Part shown: in pieces, positions 33,508 to 63,991 of the stretch
Numbering within the stretch: the stretch's first letter is position 1
How the letters are laid out: every line of letters begins with the position of its first letter
DNA from: Microbacterium sp. 1.5R
GTDB lineage: Bacteria; Actinomycetota; Actinomycetes; Actinomycetales; Microbacteriaceae
DNA length: 64,000 bases
Direction of reading: 5' to 3'
Assembly (NCBI RefSeq): GCF_001889265.1
Contig: NZ_CP018151.1
Span: 186,001 to 250,000 of the forward strand
Notes under the pieces: generated by a model
Told to the model about the DNA's origin: nothing
What the model saw: the letters and a program-made list of their open reading frames with translations, nothing else
Database searches by the model: none
Program-made: the position numbers and the translations under genes

Positions 33508-33647
33508 GTGCGGTGGGTGGTCAGTAATGCACCTGAAGTGGCCGCGAGGGGTGCGAAAGTGGCCACTCACGCGAGGGGCGTGCGGTGGGTGGTCAGTAAT
33601 GCACCTGAAATGGCCGTGAGGGATGCGAAAGTGACCACTCACGCGCG
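33508..33647. repeat. Two tandem copies of a 72-bp intergenic repeat
   Basis: Copy 1 starts at 33508 and copy 2 at 33580, each beginning GTGCGGTGGGTGGTCAGTAA and ending in an ACTCACGCG block, with only scattered differences. Within each copy, GGTGGGTGGTCA near the left end is a near-complement of TGACCACTCACG or TGGCCACTCACG near the right end, so each can fold. Immediately to the left, 33476-33507 holds four GACGCCY heptads. It lies between the start of the binding-protein operon and the end of the fused ATPase gene. The rest of the 360-bp interval holds only the promoter and operator of the operon. Confidence 0.85.
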
Positions 33648-49904: not shown

Positions 49905-49967
49905 GGGGATGCTCCAGAGAAGGTGCCCGGGGATGGGGCAGACGTTCCAGCGTAAGACCTCGGTCTC

Positions 49968-50059
49968 GATGCGGAGGATTTCTGCAGTACGGAGGGCGGA
50001 TGCCGGGAATCGGCCCTCCGTATCGAGGATCCCCTCCCGACGGTGGTGTCGCGGGAGGG
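49968..50059. repeat. Intergenic double-hairpin element (single copy)
   Basis: Within the 323-bp gap upstream of the SulP gene, GATGCGGAGGATTTCTGCAG precedes a perfect 10-bp inverted repeat, TACGGAGGGC at 49988-49997 and GCCCTCCGTA at 50013-50022. A second perfect 8-bp stem, CCCTCCCG/CGGGAGGG, lies at 50032-50059. The left part matches the repeats at 52754 and 54025. The remainder of the gap holds the divergent promoters of SulP and the DUF2520 gene and nothing else I can name. Confidence 0.7.
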
Positions 50060-50953: not shown

Positions 50954-51816
50954 GAATCCTCCGTACGATCGCCGAGGTGCGCACCGCGGTTCGAGACGCC
51001 CGCGCTGACGGCGGGACTGTCGGGCTCGTCCCGACCATGGGCGCCTTCCACGAGGGGCACCTCTCGCTCATGCGCGCGGCGAGGGCGCAGAACGACCTCG
51101 TCGTCGTCTCGCTCTTCGTCAATCCGACCCAGTTCGCCGCGAACGAAGACCTCAGCACCTACCCGCGCGACGAAGCGCGTGACGCCGCGCTCGCCGAAGC
51201 CGAGGGTGTCGACATCCTCTTCGCCCCCGAGCCGGCCGAGATCTACCCCGACGGCTTCGCCACGAACATTCACGTGGCGGGCATCACCGAGGTGCTCGAC
51301 GGCGCGAGCCGCGGCCCCCACCACTTCGACGGCGTCGCGACCGTCGTCACGAAGCTGTTCGGCATCGTGCAGCCCGACGTCGCGTACTTCGGGCAGAAGG
51401 ATGCGCAGCAGGTGCTCGTCGTCCGCCGGGTCGTGCGTGACCTGAACCTCGATGTGCGCATCGAGGCGTGCCCCATCGTCCGCGAACCCGACGGACTCGC
51501 CATGAGCTCGCGCAACGTGTACCTCGACGCGGATGCACGCGCCCAGGCGACCGCGCTGAACCGCGCGCTCGACGCGGCGGATGCCGCGCACCGTTCGGGC
51601 GACGGCGATGGCGACGGCGATGGCGATGGCATCCTGTCCGCTGCCCGGGATGTTCTCGCCGAGGCGGGAATCGACGTCGAGTACCTGGAACTCCGGGATG
51701 CCGAGACGCTTCAGCCCGTCACCCGCATCGACCGCGACGCCCTGCTGCTCGTCGCCGCCCGTGTCGGCGCCGCCCGATTGATCGACAACCATCTGCTGAG
51801 AGGGTTCACGCCATGA
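50950..51816 (+). CDS. panC: Pantothenate synthetase
   Basis: The 288-residue enzyme joins pantoate and beta-alanine with ATP hydrolysis to AMP. It shows GLVPTMGAFHEGHLSLMRAA (HxGH ATP site), VVVSLFVNPTQFAANEDLST, FDGVATVVTKLFGIVQPDVA and YFGQKDAQQ, and MSSRNVYL with the KMSKS-like loop. A run of five GDGDGDGDGDG residues at about 217-227 comes from a six-base tandem repeat and lies in a surface-loop region. It sits between the DUF2520 gene and panB with overlapping ends. Confidence 0.96.
   Translation: MRILRTIAEVRTAVRDARADGGTVGLVPTMGAFHEGHLSLMRAARAQNDLVVVSLFVNPTQFAANEDLSTYPRDEARDAALAEAEGVDILFAPEPAEIYPDGFATNIHVAGITEVLDGASRGPHHFDGVATVVTKLFGIVQPDVAYFGQKDAQQVLVVRRVVRDLNLDVRIEACPIVREPDGLAMSSRNVYLDADARAQATALNRALDAADAAHRSGDGDGDGDGDGILSAARDVLAEAGIDVEYLELRDAETLQPVTRIDRDALLLVAARVGAARLIDNHLLRGFTP
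51598..51627 (+). repeat. GGCGAY hexamer microsatellite inside panC
   Basis: Five consecutive GGCGAY hexamers encode alternating Gly-Asp residues. Each added or lost unit changes the protein by two residues and keeps the frame. Most PanC proteins lack this run. Confidence 0.9.
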
Positions 51817-52682
51817 GCGCCCACGCCGCCCCGACGAAGCGACTGACCCTGCGCGATCTCGACGCCAAGAAGCATGCCGGCGAGCCGATCGTCATGGTCA
51901 CCGCGTACGACTTCCCGAGTGCGCAGATCGTCGAGGAGGCCAGCGTCGACCTGGTGCTCGTCGGCGATTCGGCCGCGATGACCGTGCTCGGCTACGACAG
52001 CACCGTGCCCGTCACGATCGACGAGATGCTGATGCTGACGAAAGCCGTGCGGCGCGGACTCACGAAGCCACTGCTCGTCGGCGACCTGCCCTTCGGTTCG
52101 TACGAGGCGTCGGATGAGCTCGCCCTCGCGACCGCGCAGCGCTTCATCAAGGAGGCCGGCGTCGACCTGGTCAAGATCGAGCGCGGCGGCACCACGGTCG
52201 ACCGTGCTCGAGCGCTCGTGAATGCCGGCATCCCCGTCGTCGGCCATGTCGGACTCACGCCGCAGACTGCGACCTCGCTCGGCGGATACCGCGCCCAGGG
52301 ACGCACCGCCGAGGCGGCGCTCGCCGTGATCGACGACGCCCTCGCGCTGCAGGATGCCGGAGTCTCGCTGCTCGTGATCGAAGCAGTGCCGTCCGAGGTC
52401 GCCGCCGCTCTCGCGCCCCTGCTGCGCATTCCGCTGATCGGCATCGGAGCCGGAGCGGATGCCGACGGCCAGGTGCTCGTCTTCCACGACCTGCTCGGCA
52501 TCTACGCCGGCGGGGCCGCCAAGTTCGTCAAGCGCTACGCCGATGTGCGCGGTGTGTCCATCGCGGGGGTCGCGGCCTATGCCGACGAGGTGCGAGGCGG
52601 GCAGTACCCGGCGCCCGAGCACGGCTACGGGATGCCCGAGGGCGAGGCCGCGCGACTGCGCGACCTGCTCGCGCGGCGGTAG
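51813..52682 (+). CDS. panB: 3-methyl-2-oxobutanoate hydroxymethyltransferase
   Basis: The 289-residue enzyme adds a formaldehyde unit from methylene-tetrahydrofolate to 2-oxoisovalerate, giving ketopantoate. It has IVMVTAYDFPSAQIVEEASV, LVLVGDSAAMTVLGYDST (Mg-binding Asp), VDLVKIERGGTTVD (substrate Lys and Glu), VVGHVGLTPQTATSLGGYRA and IPLIGIGAGADADGQVLVFH. The ATG overlaps the panC stop. It is the last gene of the operon. Confidence 0.96.
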   Translation: MSAHAAPTKRLTLRDLDAKKHAGEPIVMVTAYDFPSAQIVEEASVDLVLVGDSAAMTVLGYDSTVPVTIDEMLMLTKAVRRGLTKPLLVGDLPFGSYEASDELALATAQRFIKEAGVDLVKIERGGTTVDRARALVNAGIPVVGHVGLTPQTATSLGGYRAQGRTAEAALAVIDDALALQDAGVSLLVIEAVPSEVAAALAPLLRIPLIGIGAGADADGQVLVFHDLLGIYAGGAAKFVKRYADVRGVSIAGVAAYADEVRGGQYPAPEHGYGMPEGEAARLRDLLARR

Positions 52683-52753
52683 GCGTCGGCCTCCCGGGGC
52701 TCGGCGTCCGGGGCTCGGCATCAGGCACTGCTGTCCTTCTCTTGCTGACCTCG

Positions 52754-53190
52754 TCGATGCGGAGGAGATCTGCGATGCGGAGGGCCGAATCGACGATCCC
52801 ATCCTCCGGTGCGCTGTTCTCCTCCGCACCGTAGGAGTGCGATGGCTGCCGTGTCGAGGTCTCGAAGCGCGCGCATCACGCATTGTGAAGGAGAAATGCG
52901 CTTCCGAAGGAGAGAATCCCGGGATCAGGCCTTCCGAAGCGCAGAACTCCTCCGTTGCGTGCGCATCCGGCTCTGCTGTCTTTCTCGTGCTGGCCATCGT
53001 CGATGCGGAGGGCCCTATCGACGATCCCATCCTCCGGTGCGCTGTTCTCCTCCGCACCGCAGGTGCGCTGCGGCCGTCGTGGCGGGGTGCCGCAGCCGTG
53101 CGGCCCGCGCGCTGCGAAGGAGAAATGCGCTTCCGAAGGAGGGAATCCCGGGATCAGGCCTTCCGAGGCGCAGAACTCCTCCGTTGGGTG
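52754..53190. repeat. 229-bp tandem duplication of a double-hairpin element
   Basis: Two copies fill the 572-bp gap after panB. The block ATCGACGATCCC...CACCG is identical over 43 bp at 52789-52831 and 53017-53059. A second block of 73 bp beginning GAAGGAGAAATGCGCTTCCG occurs at 52885-52957 and 53114-53186 with three differences. Each copy holds two nested hairpins: GGAGGAG...CTCCTCC and GAAGGAG...CTCCTCCG outer arms with CCGAAGGAG/CCTTCCGA-type inner arms. The spacer between the two blocks diverged strongly, so the arms are conserved and the linker is not. Confidence 0.85.
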
Positions 53191-53235
53191 GGTGCGTGGT
53201 TGCGTGGGTGTGTGGGTGTGTGGGTGCGTGGGTGC
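53184..53235 (+). repeat. G-rich low-complexity tract
   Basis: About 50 bp of GGGTG and GTGTGTGGG units (six or more runs of three G) directly after the second hairpin copy and before the end of the HTH gene. The pattern has quadruplex-forming potential on the plus strand and is prone to slippage. Confidence 0.7.
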
Positions 53236-53254: not shown

Positions 53255-53458
53255 TCACGCCTCCCAGCGCAGGATGTCGCCAGGCTGGCATTCCAGCACT
53301 TCGCACAGTGCGTCGAGGGTCGAGAACCGCACGGCTTTCGCCCGCCCGTTCTTCAGCACGGCCAGGTTCGTCGGCGTGATCCCGATGCGCTCGGCCAGCT
53401 CGCCGACACCCATCTTGCGTCGCGCCATCATCACGTCGATGTCGACGACGACGGGCAT
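53255..53458 (-). CDS. Small Cro/CI-type HTH regulator (YozG-like)
   Basis: The 67-residue protein is one HTH domain: VVVDIDVMMARRKMGVGELA, ERIGITPTNLAVLKNGRAKA, then FSTLDALCEVLECQPGDIL. This is the pattern of the small YozG-like regulators that pair with DUF2975 membrane proteins. Its ATG overlaps the stop of the DUF2975 gene by one base (TGATG), so the two are coupled. Confidence 0.92.
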   Translation of the reverse strand: MPVVVDIDVMMARRKMGVGELAERIGITPTNLAVLKNGRAKAVRFSTLDALCEVLECQPGDILRWEA

Positions 53459-53946
53459 CAGATGACCTCGTTGTCGAGCTCGGACCGCAGCGCCTGCGCC
53501 TCGACATCGCGGTCGATCGCCTGCCGCAGCAGCGCCTTCATCACCACGACCAGCAGGGCGACGCCGGCGAGCACCACGCCGGCTCCGCCGATGAGCGCGA
53601 CGAGACCCGGAGCTGCCGAGCCCGGAGCGAGGATCGCCGCGAGGATCCACAGGAGAGCCGCGGCCACGAGGATCGCGCCGATGATCACGTCGATGTAGCG
53701 GAACGACGAGGTCGAGAAGATCGATCCGCGACGCACCTTCGTGAGCAGCAGCCACACGCAGATGCCGAAGACCTGCAGAGTGCCGACCCCGAGGACGACG
53801 ATCGACACGAAGGCGATCCGTCCCCACAGCTCTTCGTCGGCGAGGTCGAGCCACAGCAGCGGCACGATGAGCGCCTGCACGGCCACGGATCCGACCAGCG
53901 CCAGCGCGATCACGACCCGCAGCACGATGATCGTCGACTTCGCCAT
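53458..53946 (-). CDS. DUF2975 membrane protein
   Basis: A 162-residue membrane protein with four hydrophobic helices (LRVVIALALVGSVAVQALIV, FVSIVVLGVGTLQVFGICVW, IDVIIGAILVAAALLWILAA, AGVVLAGVALLVVVMKALLR) and a C-terminal acidic tail. The loop KVRRGSIFSTSSFRYID fits the DUF2975 consensus. Family role is unknown; it is nearly always paired with a YozG-like HTH. GAGGTGGAG precedes the ATG. The upstream ATCGTTAATCGTTCGAT stretch may be the HTH operator. Confidence 0.9.
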   Translation of the reverse strand: MAKSTIIVLRVVIALALVGSVAVQALIVPLLWLDLADEELWGRIAFVSIVVLGVGTLQVFGICVWLLLTKVRRGSIFSTSSFRYIDVIIGAILVAAALLWILAAILAPGSAAPGLVALIGGAGVVLAGVALLVVVMKALLRQAIDRDVEAQALRSELDNEVI

Positions 53947-54024
53947 GACTCCACCTCTCATCGAACAACAGCAGAAATCTATCGTTAATCGTTCGATTGA
54001 GCAAGGTGGATGTGCGGGGCGCGT

Positions 54025-54117
54025 TCGATGCGGAGGAGATCTGCGGAAGGGAGGATCAACTTCGCGAGTTCGTCCTCCGGTGCGCAGATCTCCTCCGTTA
54101 CGCAGATCTGCTCCGGA
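54025..54117. repeat. Double-hairpin element with a perfect 15-bp outer stem
   Basis: CGGAGGAGATCTGCG at 54031-54045 and its exact complement at 54083-54097 enclose an inner GGAGGA/TCCTCC stem (54050-54055 and 54073-54078). A partial third arm, CGCAGATCTGCTCCGG, follows at 54101. The left end shares GATGCGGAGGAGATCTGCG with the element at 52754. It opens the 739-bp gap upstream of the DUF2975 gene. Confidence 0.85.
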
Positions 54118-54129
54118 TGCCGGGGCCGG

Positions 54130-54680
54130 GCGCGCTCGGAAGGAGATCGCGCCTAGCGAAGGAGATATCGGCGACATCCCTCCTTCGAGGCGAGAGATTT
54201 CCCTCGCAGTGGGGGTGGGTGCCGGCGCCGCGCGCTCGGAAGGAGATCGCGCATAACGAAGGAGGTGTCGGCGGCATCCGTCCTTCGGGGCGAGAGATCT
54301 CCTTCGTACTGGGGGTGGATGCGGGAGGGCAGCGCGCGCTCGGAAGGAGATCGCGGCTACCGAAGGAGGTGTCGCCGTCATACCTCCTTCGAGGCAAGAG
54401 ATTTCGCTCGCGGTGGGGGTGGATGCCGGAGGGCAGCACGCGCTCGGAAGGAGATCGCGTCTACCGAAGGAGGTGTCGGCGGTATCTCTCCTTCGGAGTG
54501 AGAGATCTCCTTCGCAGGCACTGTGATGCCGGAGGCAGCGCGCGCTCGGAAGGAGATCGCGTCTACCGAAGGAGGTGTCGGCGGCATCTGTCCTTCGGCG
54601 CGAGAGATCCCCTTCGGCGCGAGAGATCCCCTTCGCAGTGAGAGACCTCCTCCGGCGCGAGAGATCTCCTCCACACAGAG
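54130..54680. repeat. Five-unit tandem array of 100-104 bp hairpin repeats
   Basis: Units begin GCGCGCTCGGAAGGAGATCG (or a variant) at 54130, 54230, 54334, 54438 and 54540. Each unit has an outer pair GAAGGAGATC...GAGATCTCCTTC (decayed to GATTT in two units) and an inner pair CCGAAGGAGG...CTCCTTCGG around a GTGTCGGCGGCAT apex. A G-rich linker GTGGGGGTGGATGC separates the first four. The fifth is followed by three more right-arm copies (54611-54680). It lies between the end of the MFS gene and the DUF2975 gene. No open reading frame here looks real and no cas genes are near. Confidence 0.9.
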
Positions 54681-54685
54681 AGCAG

Positions 54686-55900
54686 CTACTCCGCCCGACG
54701 CACCCGCAGCACCAGTGCGATGAGCGCGAGCGCGATGACCGCGACGCCGTACCCGACGCACACGGCGCCGAGTCCGAAGACTCCGACGAGGATCCCTGCG
54801 ACGACTGCGGGCACGCCGAAGGCGAGGTAGGCGAGCAGGTAGATCACGGCGAACGTGTCGGCGCGGTCGGTCGGGGGGATGCGGGGTGCGAGTGAGGCGA
54901 CGACTCCCGAGAAGGCGGTGCCGAATCCCATGCCGGTCACGGCGGTCGCGGCGAGGTAGAACGGAAGCGACCCGGTCGCGAGCGCCCAGAGCGACAGCGC
55001 GGTGCCGACGGCGAGGGCCGCGGTGCCGAAGATCACCGAGGTGCGTGGGCGCCGGTTGCGGAAGAGGAATGCGGTGACCGCGCCGACGCCGGCCAGCATC
55101 GCGACCGCGAGTCCCTGCCAGACGTGCGCCTCACCGCCGAGCTGGGTGCGCACGATGTTCGCGCCGAGTGAGAGGAAGAGCCCACCCGTCGCCCAGCCGG
55201 CGATGATCGCGGGGGCTCCGCGCCAGAAGTCCGAGCGGATGCCGGCCGGCACCGACAGTCGGAAGCTCAGCGACGCGAGTGCTCCCGGCCGCAGCGGAGC
55301 GGTCTCGGGTGCCAGGAAGAAGAGCCCCGCGAGCACGATGTGCACGGCGGTCAGGGGTGCGAAGACGTCGAGCAGCGGCTGTCCGGTCACGTCCAGTGCG
55401 ATGCCCGAGACGAGCGCGCCGAGGGCGAGGCCGATTCCGGGGCTGAGCGCGTTCCACAGTGCGGCGACCCTCGAACGGCCACCGGGGGCGAGGTCGAGCG
55501 CGGCGGCCGAGAGGGCTGCGATGAGCACGCCACTCGCCGCACCCTGCAGGATGCGGGCGAGCATGAGCGTGGCGACCGTATCGGCATGCCAGAACAGCAC
55601 CATGCTCGCGGCGAGCACCAGGAGACCGCCGATCGCGACCGGTCGCCGCCCGACATGGTCGGAGAGCGAGCCTGCGGTGAGCAGGGCGAGCAGCAGGGCG
55701 ACCGCGTAGACGGCGAAGACGGCGCTGATGACGATCGCGTCGAATCCGATCTCTGCGGCGAGCACGGGGTAGAACGGCGATGGCGCACTCGCGCCCATCA
55801 TCATCGCGATCTGCGTCACGACGGCCAGCGCGAAGCCGAAACGCGGGCGACGGATCCGAGATGCGGTCGCGGTCGTGTCGATCGGTGACGTGGTGGTCAT
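54686..55900 (-). CDS. MFS transporter
   Basis: The 404-residue protein has about 12 hydrophobic helices and the MFS loop motif LTAGSLSDHVGRRPVAIGGL near residue 80. GAASGVLIAALSAAALDLAP fits the fourth-helix motif of drug:proton antiporters. It is divergent from an ArsR-type regulator 85 bp away, a common arrangement for efflux genes under local repression. Substrate unknown. The GGGAG site lies upstream of the ATG. Confidence 0.9.
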   Translation of the reverse strand: MTTTSPIDTTATASRIRRPRFGFALAVVTQIAMMMGASAPSPFYPVLAAEIGFDAIVISAVFAVYAVALLLALLTAGSLSDHVGRRPVAIGGLLVLAASMVLFWHADTVATLMLARILQGAASGVLIAALSAAALDLAPGGRSRVAALWNALSPGIGLALGALVSGIALDVTGQPLLDVFAPLTAVHIVLAGLFFLAPETAPLRPGALASLSFRLSVPAGIRSDFWRGAPAIIAGWATGGLFLSLGANIVRTQLGGEAHVWQGLAVAMLAGVGAVTAFLFRNRRPRTSVIFGTAALAVGTALSLWALATGSLPFYLAATAVTGMGFGTAFSGVVASLAPRIPPTDRADTFAVIYLLAYLAFGVPAVVAGILVGVFGLGAVCVGYGVAVIALALIALVLRVRRAE

Positions 55901-62224: not shown

Positions 62225-63913
62225 ATGACGGATGCTGCGGCGCAGGGCGCCCATCGTGCCCGGTACCGCCGCATCCTGTCGTTCGCGGCGCGCGAGTTCC
62301 TCAAGGTCTGGTGGTTCGAGCTCGTGCTGCCGCGCTTCGGCATGAGCTCGATCGCCGAGCGCACCCGGGCGCCGCGCATGCAGCGCTTCGCGAAGCGGTT
62401 CCACGTGCTCGCGGTCGAACTCGGCGGCCTCATGATCAAGGTCGGGCAGTTCATGTCGTCACGCCTCGACGTGCTGCCGCCCGAGATCACGAAGGAGCTC
62501 GAGGGACTGCAGGACGAGGTCCCGGCCGTGCCGTTCGCCGACATCCGCGCGGCCGCCGAGGCCGAACTCGGCCGTCCGCTCGCGGAGGCCTACGCCTGGT
62601 TCGATGAGACGCCGGTGGCTGCGGCATCCCTCGGCCAGGCGCACCGGGCCCGCCTCTCCGCACAGGATGCCGTCGACACCGGTCTCGGCGACGTCGTCGT
62701 CAAGGTGCAGCGCCCCGGCATCGACGAGATCGTCGCGGTCGACCTCGCGGCACTCCGCCGCGTCGCCCGCTGGGCGATGCGCGTCCGACTGGTCGCCGAT
62801 CGGGTCGACGCTCCCGGCCTCGTCGAGGAGTTCGCGCAGACCAGCCTCGAGGAGATCGACTACCTGCACGAGGCCGCCAGCGCCGAGCGCTTTCGTGAGA
62901 ACTTCGCCGGCGACCCGCGCGTCAGCGCCCCCGAGATCGTCTGGGAGCGGTCGACCCGGCGCGTGCTCACGCTCTCGGACGTCACCGCGATCAAGATCAA
63001 CGACACGGATGCTCTGCGGGCAGCCGGCATCGATCCGGCCGAGGTCGCCGATGTGTTCGCCGAGGTCATGTTCGACCAGGTGTTCACGCACAGCTTCGTG
63101 CACGCCGACCCGCACCCGGGCAACATCTTCGTGACACCGGAGGCCGACTCGACGACCGGCCGCAACTTCCGCCTCACCTTCATCGACTTCGGGATGATGG
63201 CCGAGGTGCCCGACAACCTCCGCGACGGTCTGCGCACCCTGCTGATCGCGGTCGCCGGTCGCGACAGTCGAGGCCTGGTCACAGCGGCCCAGGAGATCGG
63301 CGTGCTGCTGCCCTCCGCCGACACCGCCGAGCTCGAGCGGGCGCTCCGCGCGCTGTTCGCCCGCTTCGGCGGCATGGGCTTCGCAGAGCTCAGCAAGGTC
63401 GACCCTCGGGAGTTCACCGACTTCGCCGACGAGTTCGGCGACATGGTGCGCTCGCTTCCGCTCCAGCTGCCCGAGAACATGCTGCTGCTCATCCGTGCGG
63501 TGTCGCTGACTTCGGGCATGTGCTCGAGCCTCGACCCGTCGTTCAACGTGTGGGACGCCGCCGAGCCCTACGCCGGCCGCCTGCTGCGCGACGAGTCGGG
63601 CAACCTCATGCAGGACATGGCGCAGCAGGCCATGGAGACCGCCGCCGTCACCTACCGCCTGCCGAAGCGGATCGACGCGATCATCACCCGCGTCGACGAC
63701 GGCAACGTCACCTTCGACACCTCGGCCCTCGAGCGCCGCCTCGACCGGCTCGAGGGCATCGCCCGCCGCATCGGATCGGGCGTGCTGTTCGCCGCGATGC
63801 TCGTCGGAGGCGCGCTGCTCGTCACGCCGCTGCCGCCGCTCGGCATCACCCTCATCTGCGTCTCGGCGCTGCCCCTGCTGCACTCGGTGTTCGGCGGTCG
63901 TCGCTCGCGCTGA
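62225..63913 (+). CDS. ABC1/UbiB-family atypical protein kinase-like protein
   Basis: The 562-residue protein has the ABC1 features: KxGQ motif LGGLMIKVGQFMSSRLDVLP, the Ala-rich loop VAAASLGQAHRA, the ATP Lys in DVVVKVQRPGIDE, the HADPHPGN catalytic motif and the metal Asp in TFIDFGMMAEVP. The C-terminus carries two hydrophobic segments (IGSGVLFAAMLVGGALLVTP, LGITLICVSALPLLHSVFGG), so it is membrane-bound. Relatives act in isoprenoid-quinone metabolism; the role in Actinobacteria is open. Its stop lies in the first unit of a tandem repeat. Confidence 0.92.
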   Translation: MTDAAAQGAHRARYRRILSFAAREFLKVWWFELVLPRFGMSSIAERTRAPRMQRFAKRFHVLAVELGGLMIKVGQFMSSRLDVLPPEITKELEGLQDEVPAVPFADIRAAAEAELGRPLAEAYAWFDETPVAAASLGQAHRARLSAQDAVDTGLGDVVVKVQRPGIDEIVAVDLAALRRVARWAMRVRLVADRVDAPGLVEEFAQTSLEEIDYLHEAASAERFRENFAGDPRVSAPEIVWERSTRRVLTLSDVTAIKINDTDALRAAGIDPAEVADVFAEVMFDQVFTHSFVHADPHPGNIFVTPEADSTTGRNFRLTFIDFGMMAEVPDNLRDGLRTLLIAVAGRDSRGLVTAAQEIGVLLPSADTAELERALRALFARFGGMGFAELSKVDPREFTDFADEFGDMVRSLPLQLPENMLLLIRAVSLTSGMCSSLDPSFNVWDAAEPYAGRLLRDESGNLMQDMAQQAMETAAVTYRLPKRIDAIITRVDDGNVTFDTSALERRLDRLEGIARRIGSGVLFAAMLVGGALLVTPLPPLGITLICVSALPLLHSVFGGRRSR

Positions 63914-63991
63914 TGCGCCCGGAGTGCTCGCGCTGATGCGCCCTGGTGCTCGCGCTGACGCGTCCTGGTGCTCGCGCTGATGCGCCCGGAG
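63903..63991. repeat. Four tandem copies of a 22-23 bp repeat at the 3' end of the ABC1 gene
   Basis: The unit GCTCGCGCTGATGCGCCC plus four to five bases occurs at 63903, 63926, 63948 and 63970, with few changes. The first unit contains the stop codon of the ABC1-family gene, so the array grew from its 3' end. It may continue beyond the window. Confidence 0.85.

Follow-up and report, generated by a model that had tools for sequence, protein, structure and literature searches.

The tandem array and its neighbourhood

The window analysed here is a stretch of 64,000 nucleotides from Microbacterium sp. 1.5R (contig NZ_CP018151.1, positions 186,001 to 250,000; the genome is called G000 below). Positions 54127-54680 of the window hold array B, which consists of five tandem units, each with a rigid 67-bp nested-palindrome core. 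Array B represents a locally expanded tandem of a nested-palindrome element that is dispersed in Microbacterium genomes. The partner of this element is probably an AbiEi-DUF559 nuclease, the gene of which is located elsewhere in the chromosome (at about 3476.7 kb), with a copy of the same dialect on either side (the dialects being word versions on a common geometry). The core is made of an outer word, GAAGGAGATC, and an inner word, CGAAGGA, followed by both words reversed. The distance from outer to inner word is 19 bp within each arm, i.e. a 19-bp direct repeat, which the initial annotation does not mention. The right outer word is intact in units 2 and 4, and has one mismatch in unit 5, two in unit 1 and three in unit 3. 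The initial annotation had described five tandem nested-hairpin units of 100-104 bp, and both the units and their coordinates were confirmed by Tandem Repeats Finder (TRF; tandem repeat 54115-54616, period 104, 4.9 copies, score 638) and by the positions of the cores, which start 100, 104, 104 and 102 bp apart. When three of the units were folded as single-stranded DNA (ssDNA), z scores of -3.84, -3.41 and -1.73 were obtained. The tail of the array is a plain 19-bp tandem run, and thus the word unit is the smallest building block. The features at and around the array, in window positions, are the following:

49961..50049, no strand: weak module (28 bits) within a divergent gap
51813..52682, + strand: panB, ketopantoate hydroxymethyltransferase, 3' end towards array A
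52749..52837, no strand: GGAGGAG-type module, first of array A
52875..52965, no strand: GAAGGAGAAATG-type module of array A
53104..53194, no strand: second GAAGGAGAAATG-type module of array A, in a ~229-bp tandem
53255..53458, - strand: small HTH_26 protein, 3' end towards array A
53458..53946, - strand: DUF2975 membrane protein, array B lying upstream of the gene
54020..54108, no strand: GGAGGAG-type module with a 65-bp core at 54032-54096, z -6.27 folded as an ssDNA hairpin
54127..54627, no strand: array B, five tandem dialect-a units with cores at 54139-54205, 54239-54305, 54343-54409, 54447-54513 and 54549-54615
54591..54670, no strand: 19-bp tandem tail of array B, 4.2 copies of the word unit (TRF)
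54686..55900, - strand: MFS transporter, array B starting directly past its stop codon

The order is thus panB (+), array A, HTH_26 (-), DUF2975 (-), array B and MFS transporter (-). The HTH_26/DUF2975 pair (53255-53946) has arrays on both sides, A past its 3' end and B upstream. As a candidate partner this pair was set aside upon the finding of the DUF559 link, without being formally excluded. The single canonical U-tract terminator site found is located at 52716-52733, ahead of array A, and none was detected within the arrays. In the whole window no match to Rfam was obtained at the gathering score and no tRNAs were found. Two further tandem repeats were observed in the window, one of 72 bp at 33508-33645 (1.9 copies, 93% matches) and one of 22 bp at 63903-63987 (3.8 copies).

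Dispersal, dialects and genomic placement

The outer word GAAGGAGATC occurs 72 times genome-wide and its reversed form once. A genome-wide pattern search, of a kind which the initial annotation had proposed without noting any dispersed copies, revealed copies both elsewhere in this genome and in other genomes of the genus. The full pattern was found at seven places in G000, all with a spacer of N47 when N42-52 was allowed, and in 4 of 38 searched genomes, this one included; it was absent from all 15 tested genomes outside the genus. A positional scan of the fetched DNA, in which up to nine mismatches over the four words were accepted, gave 38 matches (some places twice) compared to none with the reversed control. 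With R1, a covariance model built from 50 copies, at least 32 places were found in G000 at E<=0.01, and matches in at least 27 of 39 genus genomes (G000 included) at E<=1e-5, the best 111-150 of up to 3483 first-look candidates having been scored per genome. When a one-arm pattern was searched in the GTDB species genomes, 38 of the 40 stretches obtained belonged to records with Microbacterium or Microbacteriaceae in their name. A spread by viruses or plasmids was considered and rejected: no viral contig carried the dialect-a pattern, and the nuclease had only three distant plasmid matches and one partial phage match.

The impression of conserved base pairing in the initial annotation is supported by covariation in the linkers of independent copies. 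In a set of 21 copies less than 70% identical to each other, in which the register was not checked row by row and the left outer word of L043 was shifted, linker positions 12-18 paired in 90 of 147 cells compared to 74.2 after shuffling (a value reached in 3 of 2000 shuffles). For positions 13-18, all of which the search pattern left free, 70 of 126 cells were paired compared to 56.2 (6 of 2000 shuffles). There was no pairing excess in flank positions -9 to 0, which have a conserved composition in common (90 of 210 compared to 92.7), indicating that the hairpin that covaries extends no further than the outer word. Between species, the words at an orthologous site can change jointly in both arms.

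The words are not fixed, and the nested geometry recurs with other sequences. At L089 and L103, G000 has GGAGG where other genomes carry GAAGG, and at L100 it is G004 and G049 which have GGAGG where G000 carries GAAGG. Dialect c of G000 is a GCAGGA family of the same geometry, for which the dialect-word pattern search approached the control level at three mismatches. The likeness of the words to a Shine-Dalgarno sequence, pointed out initially for AGGAG, holds for some dialects and fails for those with GCAGGA, CATAAACGCG or GTTTGGGGC; a Shine-Dalgarno meaning was therefore dropped. When G000 was scanned for the architecture only, a spacing of 19 was favoured, with 5 hits in the terminus set and 21 in the origin set, whereas eight other spacings gave 0-3 and 0-9, respectively; a single locus contributed four of the five terminus hits, and most origin-set hits were the window arrays or known R1 places. 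G007, which has no R1 match, contains nested palindromes with CATAAACGCG and GTTTGGGGC words and the 19-bp geometry (L202 1857 and 5030; L206 3284 and 9462; L208 405; L193 4020; L190 1081; L197 7837). It also has 62-bp GTTGAGTGTCC...GGACACTCAAC hairpins without the 19-bp word repeat (L191 3140, L196 13602, L197 4536, L200 4682). A further pair of similar, intergenic hairpins of the CGCAGTTCGTGCCGC type was seen in G000 (L152 15789 and L157 2894).

Most copies are located at the 3' ends of genes, and different species often carry them at the same sites. For 73 copies from nine genomes, the copy-bearing gaps were 29 convergent, 27 tandem and 5 divergent, compared to 39, 90 and 53, respectively, among all gaps of at least 75 bp in the same loci, which had been fetched because of their copies. 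An earlier set of 53 copies gave 30 convergent, 17 tandem and 1 divergent, with 5 at an edge. Among the copies in tandem gaps outside the window, 22 of 26 were nearer to the stop codon of the upstream gene. Of the 84 copies taken from other species, 35 could be placed by both flanks in a fetched locus of G000 and 49 could not; 33 of the 35 fall in a gap which holds an R1 element in G000, and of the other two, one is in a gap occupied by a dialect-c element. In G001 and in Microbacterium sp. ISL-103 the site of array B is occupied by one clear copy each, with a weak further palindrome in the latter, and the fivefold tandem is thus specific to this genome or its close relatives. Orthologous sites can also be empty: among 52 site-by-locus pairs, with array units counted repeatedly, 26 were R1-like, 13 had another palindrome and 13 were empty.

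With dnaA as the origin mark, and among the matches listed, the origin half holds 48 of 53 merged loci in six genomes, compared to 21 of 43 for lone GAAGGAGATC words. G008 alone, with three loci, showed no origin bias. In a pattern search of G000 that kept every hit, all 11 CGAAGGA-type places were in the origin half, and two CGGAGGA-type places, located at 684 and 2650 kb, seem to be chance matches. Dialect c of G000 is mostly origin-proximal (13 merged loci, Kolmogorov-Smirnov (KS) 7e-5); with four doubtful unpaired rows (2-3 mismatches) added, 13 of 17 loci were in the origin half (KS 0.0099). The CATAAACGCG words of G007 are not origin-limited, with four in the terminus set and one in the origin set. 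Function, gene dosage or history may underlie the clustering of elements.

This placement could also point to elements that serve the host at gene 3' ends or in the nucleoid, as bidirectional transcription ends, mRNA stabilisers or origin-domain binding sites, the DUF559 protein being at most a domesticated binding partner and not a mobility factor. We consider such a role unlikely. The convergent and tandem gaps (56 of 61), the position of tandem copies near the upstream stop, the conservation of sites between species and the origin-half loci are all in line with it. However, the arrays are devoid of U-tract terminators, the words have been turned over wholesale and orthologous sites can be empty. 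Restriction to the origin half would be ill-suited to a general terminator, and the flanking of nuclease genes, to which we turn below, would be left unexplained.

DUF559 nuclease genes flanked by shared repeats

The top DUF559 match of G000 is located between dialect-a copies at 3476.6 and 3477.6 kb. The encoded protein is predicted to combine an AbiEi-like DNA-binding domain with a nuclease domain of the I-Bth0305I/Vsr type. It matches PF04480 with 32.1 bits (cut-off 20.6), its predicted fold is of the Vsr type, and AbiEi models of PADLOC matched at 1.6e-5 and weaker. Residues E180, D206, D218, H222, D230 and D234 are invariant in 69 relatives and are candidates for the active site. In NCBIfam no match above a cut-off was obtained, and a PDB search with the single sequence gave nothing significant (best 0.058); with a profile, 3hrl (0.0011) and 3r3p (0.039) were found. 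DUF559 proteins occur in 73 of 99 genomes and 40 of 52 genera of the order. A literature search in titles and abstracts, with subscription papers outside its scope, gave no link of DUF559 or Vsr-like proteins with palindromic repeats. A RAYT partner was rejected, as PF01797 (Y1) had no match in G000 compared to matches in 5 of 14 control genomes.

Several other DUF559 genes have a similar setting. One is located between two dialect-c arrays of G000 (2428.9-2430.2 kb), and others between GCACGACCCGGGAACGGATGCACGA copies in G049, between copies of a GGACGACC-type dialect in G001 and between GTTGAGTGTCC copies in G007 (L275). The DUF559 genes of G000 at 963.6, 2129.8 and 2590.8 kb also have flanking repeats, identified partly by eye, and at two of these three loci the repeat words occur, within the fetched DNA, only at their own locus. 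In G004 (L121, 3204-4025) a DUF559 gene between two GGAGGAG elements is seemingly split into two reading frames.

The association was quantified by scoring repeats shared between left and right 600-bp flanks, with thresholds of >=34 and >=45. DUF559 starts were set by rule (longest start <=960 nt from the stop), and 382 control genes from G000 and G007 were called with a home-made gene finder. In Microbacterium, a shared repeat was found at 44 of 56 DUF559 loci compared to 19 of 382 controls at the lower threshold (Fisher 3e-34), and at 33 of 56 compared to 3 of 382 at the higher one (Fisher 4e-31). The lower threshold was reached by 4/5 loci of G000, 25/30 and 0/1 of other Microbacterium and 15/20 of a later set, i.e. 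20 of the 30 genus DUF559 matches that earlier had no loci; at the higher threshold the corresponding numbers were 1/5, 21/30 and 0/1, and 11/20. L252 (score 30), a Microbacterium locus from the 28-locus order set, was counted with the genus, which leaves 27 loci of other genera; of these, 16 and 10 had a shared repeat at the two thresholds, respectively. Among control genes flanked on either side by a gap of at least 100 bp, the count was 2 of 47 at the lower as well as the higher threshold; for weakly coding controls it was 5 and 3 of 96, respectively. L194, a high-scoring control (score 110), resembles repeated coding sequence and not a palindrome. In a first version of the test, with poorer gene ends, 12 of 35 loci scored >=57, the 99% point of the controls being 56. 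The flanking of DUF559 genes by repeats is thus a well supported association.

The repeats in the Microbacterium DUF559 flanks peak at lags of 19 and 18, which are also the spacings where the nested architecture is most frequent (L251 scored on a run of N). Protein and repeat are modestly correlated. For 21 hand-picked loci, one of them from a sister genus, with elements chosen automatically, the Spearman coefficient between protein identity and element similarity was 0.228 (16 of 5000 permutations), and 0.207 for pairs below 60% identity (17 of 3000). In 18 of 21 cases the 18/19 spacing class is that of the nearest neighbour by protein (53 of 5000).

It could be argued that the flanking copies are operators for AbiEi-like autoregulation and the dispersed copies operators of a regulon. 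This seems improbable, as copies are found downstream of the nuclease gene too and only 5 of 61 gaps are divergent. Passive palindromes formed by replication slippage and template switching, with the DUF559 link as a by-product of a common gap type, would account for the slippage-like 19-bp tandem tails and local array growth, but are very hard to reconcile with the wide-gap controls, the protein-element correlation and a spacing class that tracks the protein.

Proposed mechanism and relation to known repeat systems

We thus return to the reading in which array B is an expansion of an element with a nuclease partner. It is probable, by analogy, that the array is a target or passenger repeat of the Vsr-like nuclease, in a system working much as REP/RAYT (repetitive extragenic palindromic (REP) sequences and their transposase) does. 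Binding, cleavage and copying by the nuclease are steps that we infer. The N-terminal domain would recognise the word that recurs within each arm at 18/19 bp, the Vsr/homing-type domain would nick or cut at the element, and repair from another copy would spread or convert elements. Cutting followed by repair from other copies would let old sites persist while their words turn over. The host may tolerate or exploit copies located at the 3' ends of genes, and tandem arrays such as array B would come from slippage or unequal exchange. Among the roles suggested in the initial annotation, the protein-binding array and the non-autonomous repeat both pointed in the right direction, the DUF559 nuclease gene being the candidate partner.

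Several observations weigh against this reading. Only one of the five DUF559 loci of G000 reaches the stricter flank threshold, and the 56 Microbacterium loci may include cross-species orthologues and are therefore not all independent. The other genera of the order showed a smaller excess and no lag-19 peak. No DUF559 partner was found for the GGAGGAG (65-bp) family of G000, nor for the CATAAACGCG and GTTTGGGGC families of G007, whose words were absent from the six DUF559 loci checked in that genome. The G001 relative of the dialect-a nuclease is without a shared flanking repeat (score 26, L276). Empty sites were found, with element ends not defined to the base and no target-site duplication defined.

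REP/RAYT is, by analogy, the closest working model. In the cited parts of the literature, REP/REPIN sequences and TnpA_REP (RAYT), together called a 'REPtron', are described as species-specific intergenic palindromes downstream of genes, with copies on both sides of the enzyme gene; the repeats co-evolve with their partner and are stable at old sites (PMC3733652, PMC8266576, PMC8049555). The Microbacterium elements are likewise found in convergent and tandem gaps, downstream of coding regions, and the candidate partner gene is flanked by copies, although it is a DUF559 gene and not a RAYT gene. In contrast to REP/RAYT, no Y1/HUH protein was found in this genome, the putative partner being a PD-(D/E)XK/Vsr-type nuclease, and the core has 65-68 bp with 18/19-bp word repeats, compared to the 20-40 bp palindrome unit of REPs. 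A consistent GTAG/CGTC tag is also missing, any of four tag words being present in the 12-nt flank of 9 of 50 copies. As neither a Y1 enzyme in this genome nor a consistent tag was found, the elements were not filed as REPs. CGTC-tagged REPs, said in the cited part of one source to lack a dedicated transposase (PMC3733652), are also palindromic intergenic repeats; in the present elements the tag is not consistent, with CGTC or its complement in at most 8 flanks among 50 rows.

The nuclease itself has known relatives with other associations. I-Bth0305I, an EDxHD/Vsr-like homing endonuclease, is labelled a mobile intron protein in PDB, whereas the Microbacterium protein is predicted to have an AbiEi-like domain instead and no intron was seen. 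VsrA of Caulobacter shares the DUF559 domain and Vsr fold, but is tied to a cytosine methyltransferase, and the cited part of that report does not mention palindromic repeats (PMC12907096).

The repeat versions appear to have co-evolved with their own nucleases, which suggests an undescribed enzyme-repeat system, built on an enzyme unrelated to that of REP/RAYT. More tentatively, AbiEi-DUF559 nucleases and 18/19-bp nested palindromes may constitute a distinct chromosomal class, selfish or domesticated, which occurs in Microbacterium and might extend to other genera of the order. One protein would then read and cut one dialect, elements would home into or convert existing sites, and several species would concentrate their populations in the origin half. 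DUF559 proteins are common and functionally obscure, and with a link to a DNA target that can be read, their specificity could be tested from the sequence. If the proposed relation is true, it would represent a second, independent realisation of the REPtron principle, based on a homing-endonuclease fold, and a role could be assigned to many genes that now carry the label DUF559 or endonuclease domain-containing protein. It would also provide an independent comparison for the persistence of REP-like repeat populations in bacteria, and it raises the concrete question of why a repeat family stays near the replication origin.
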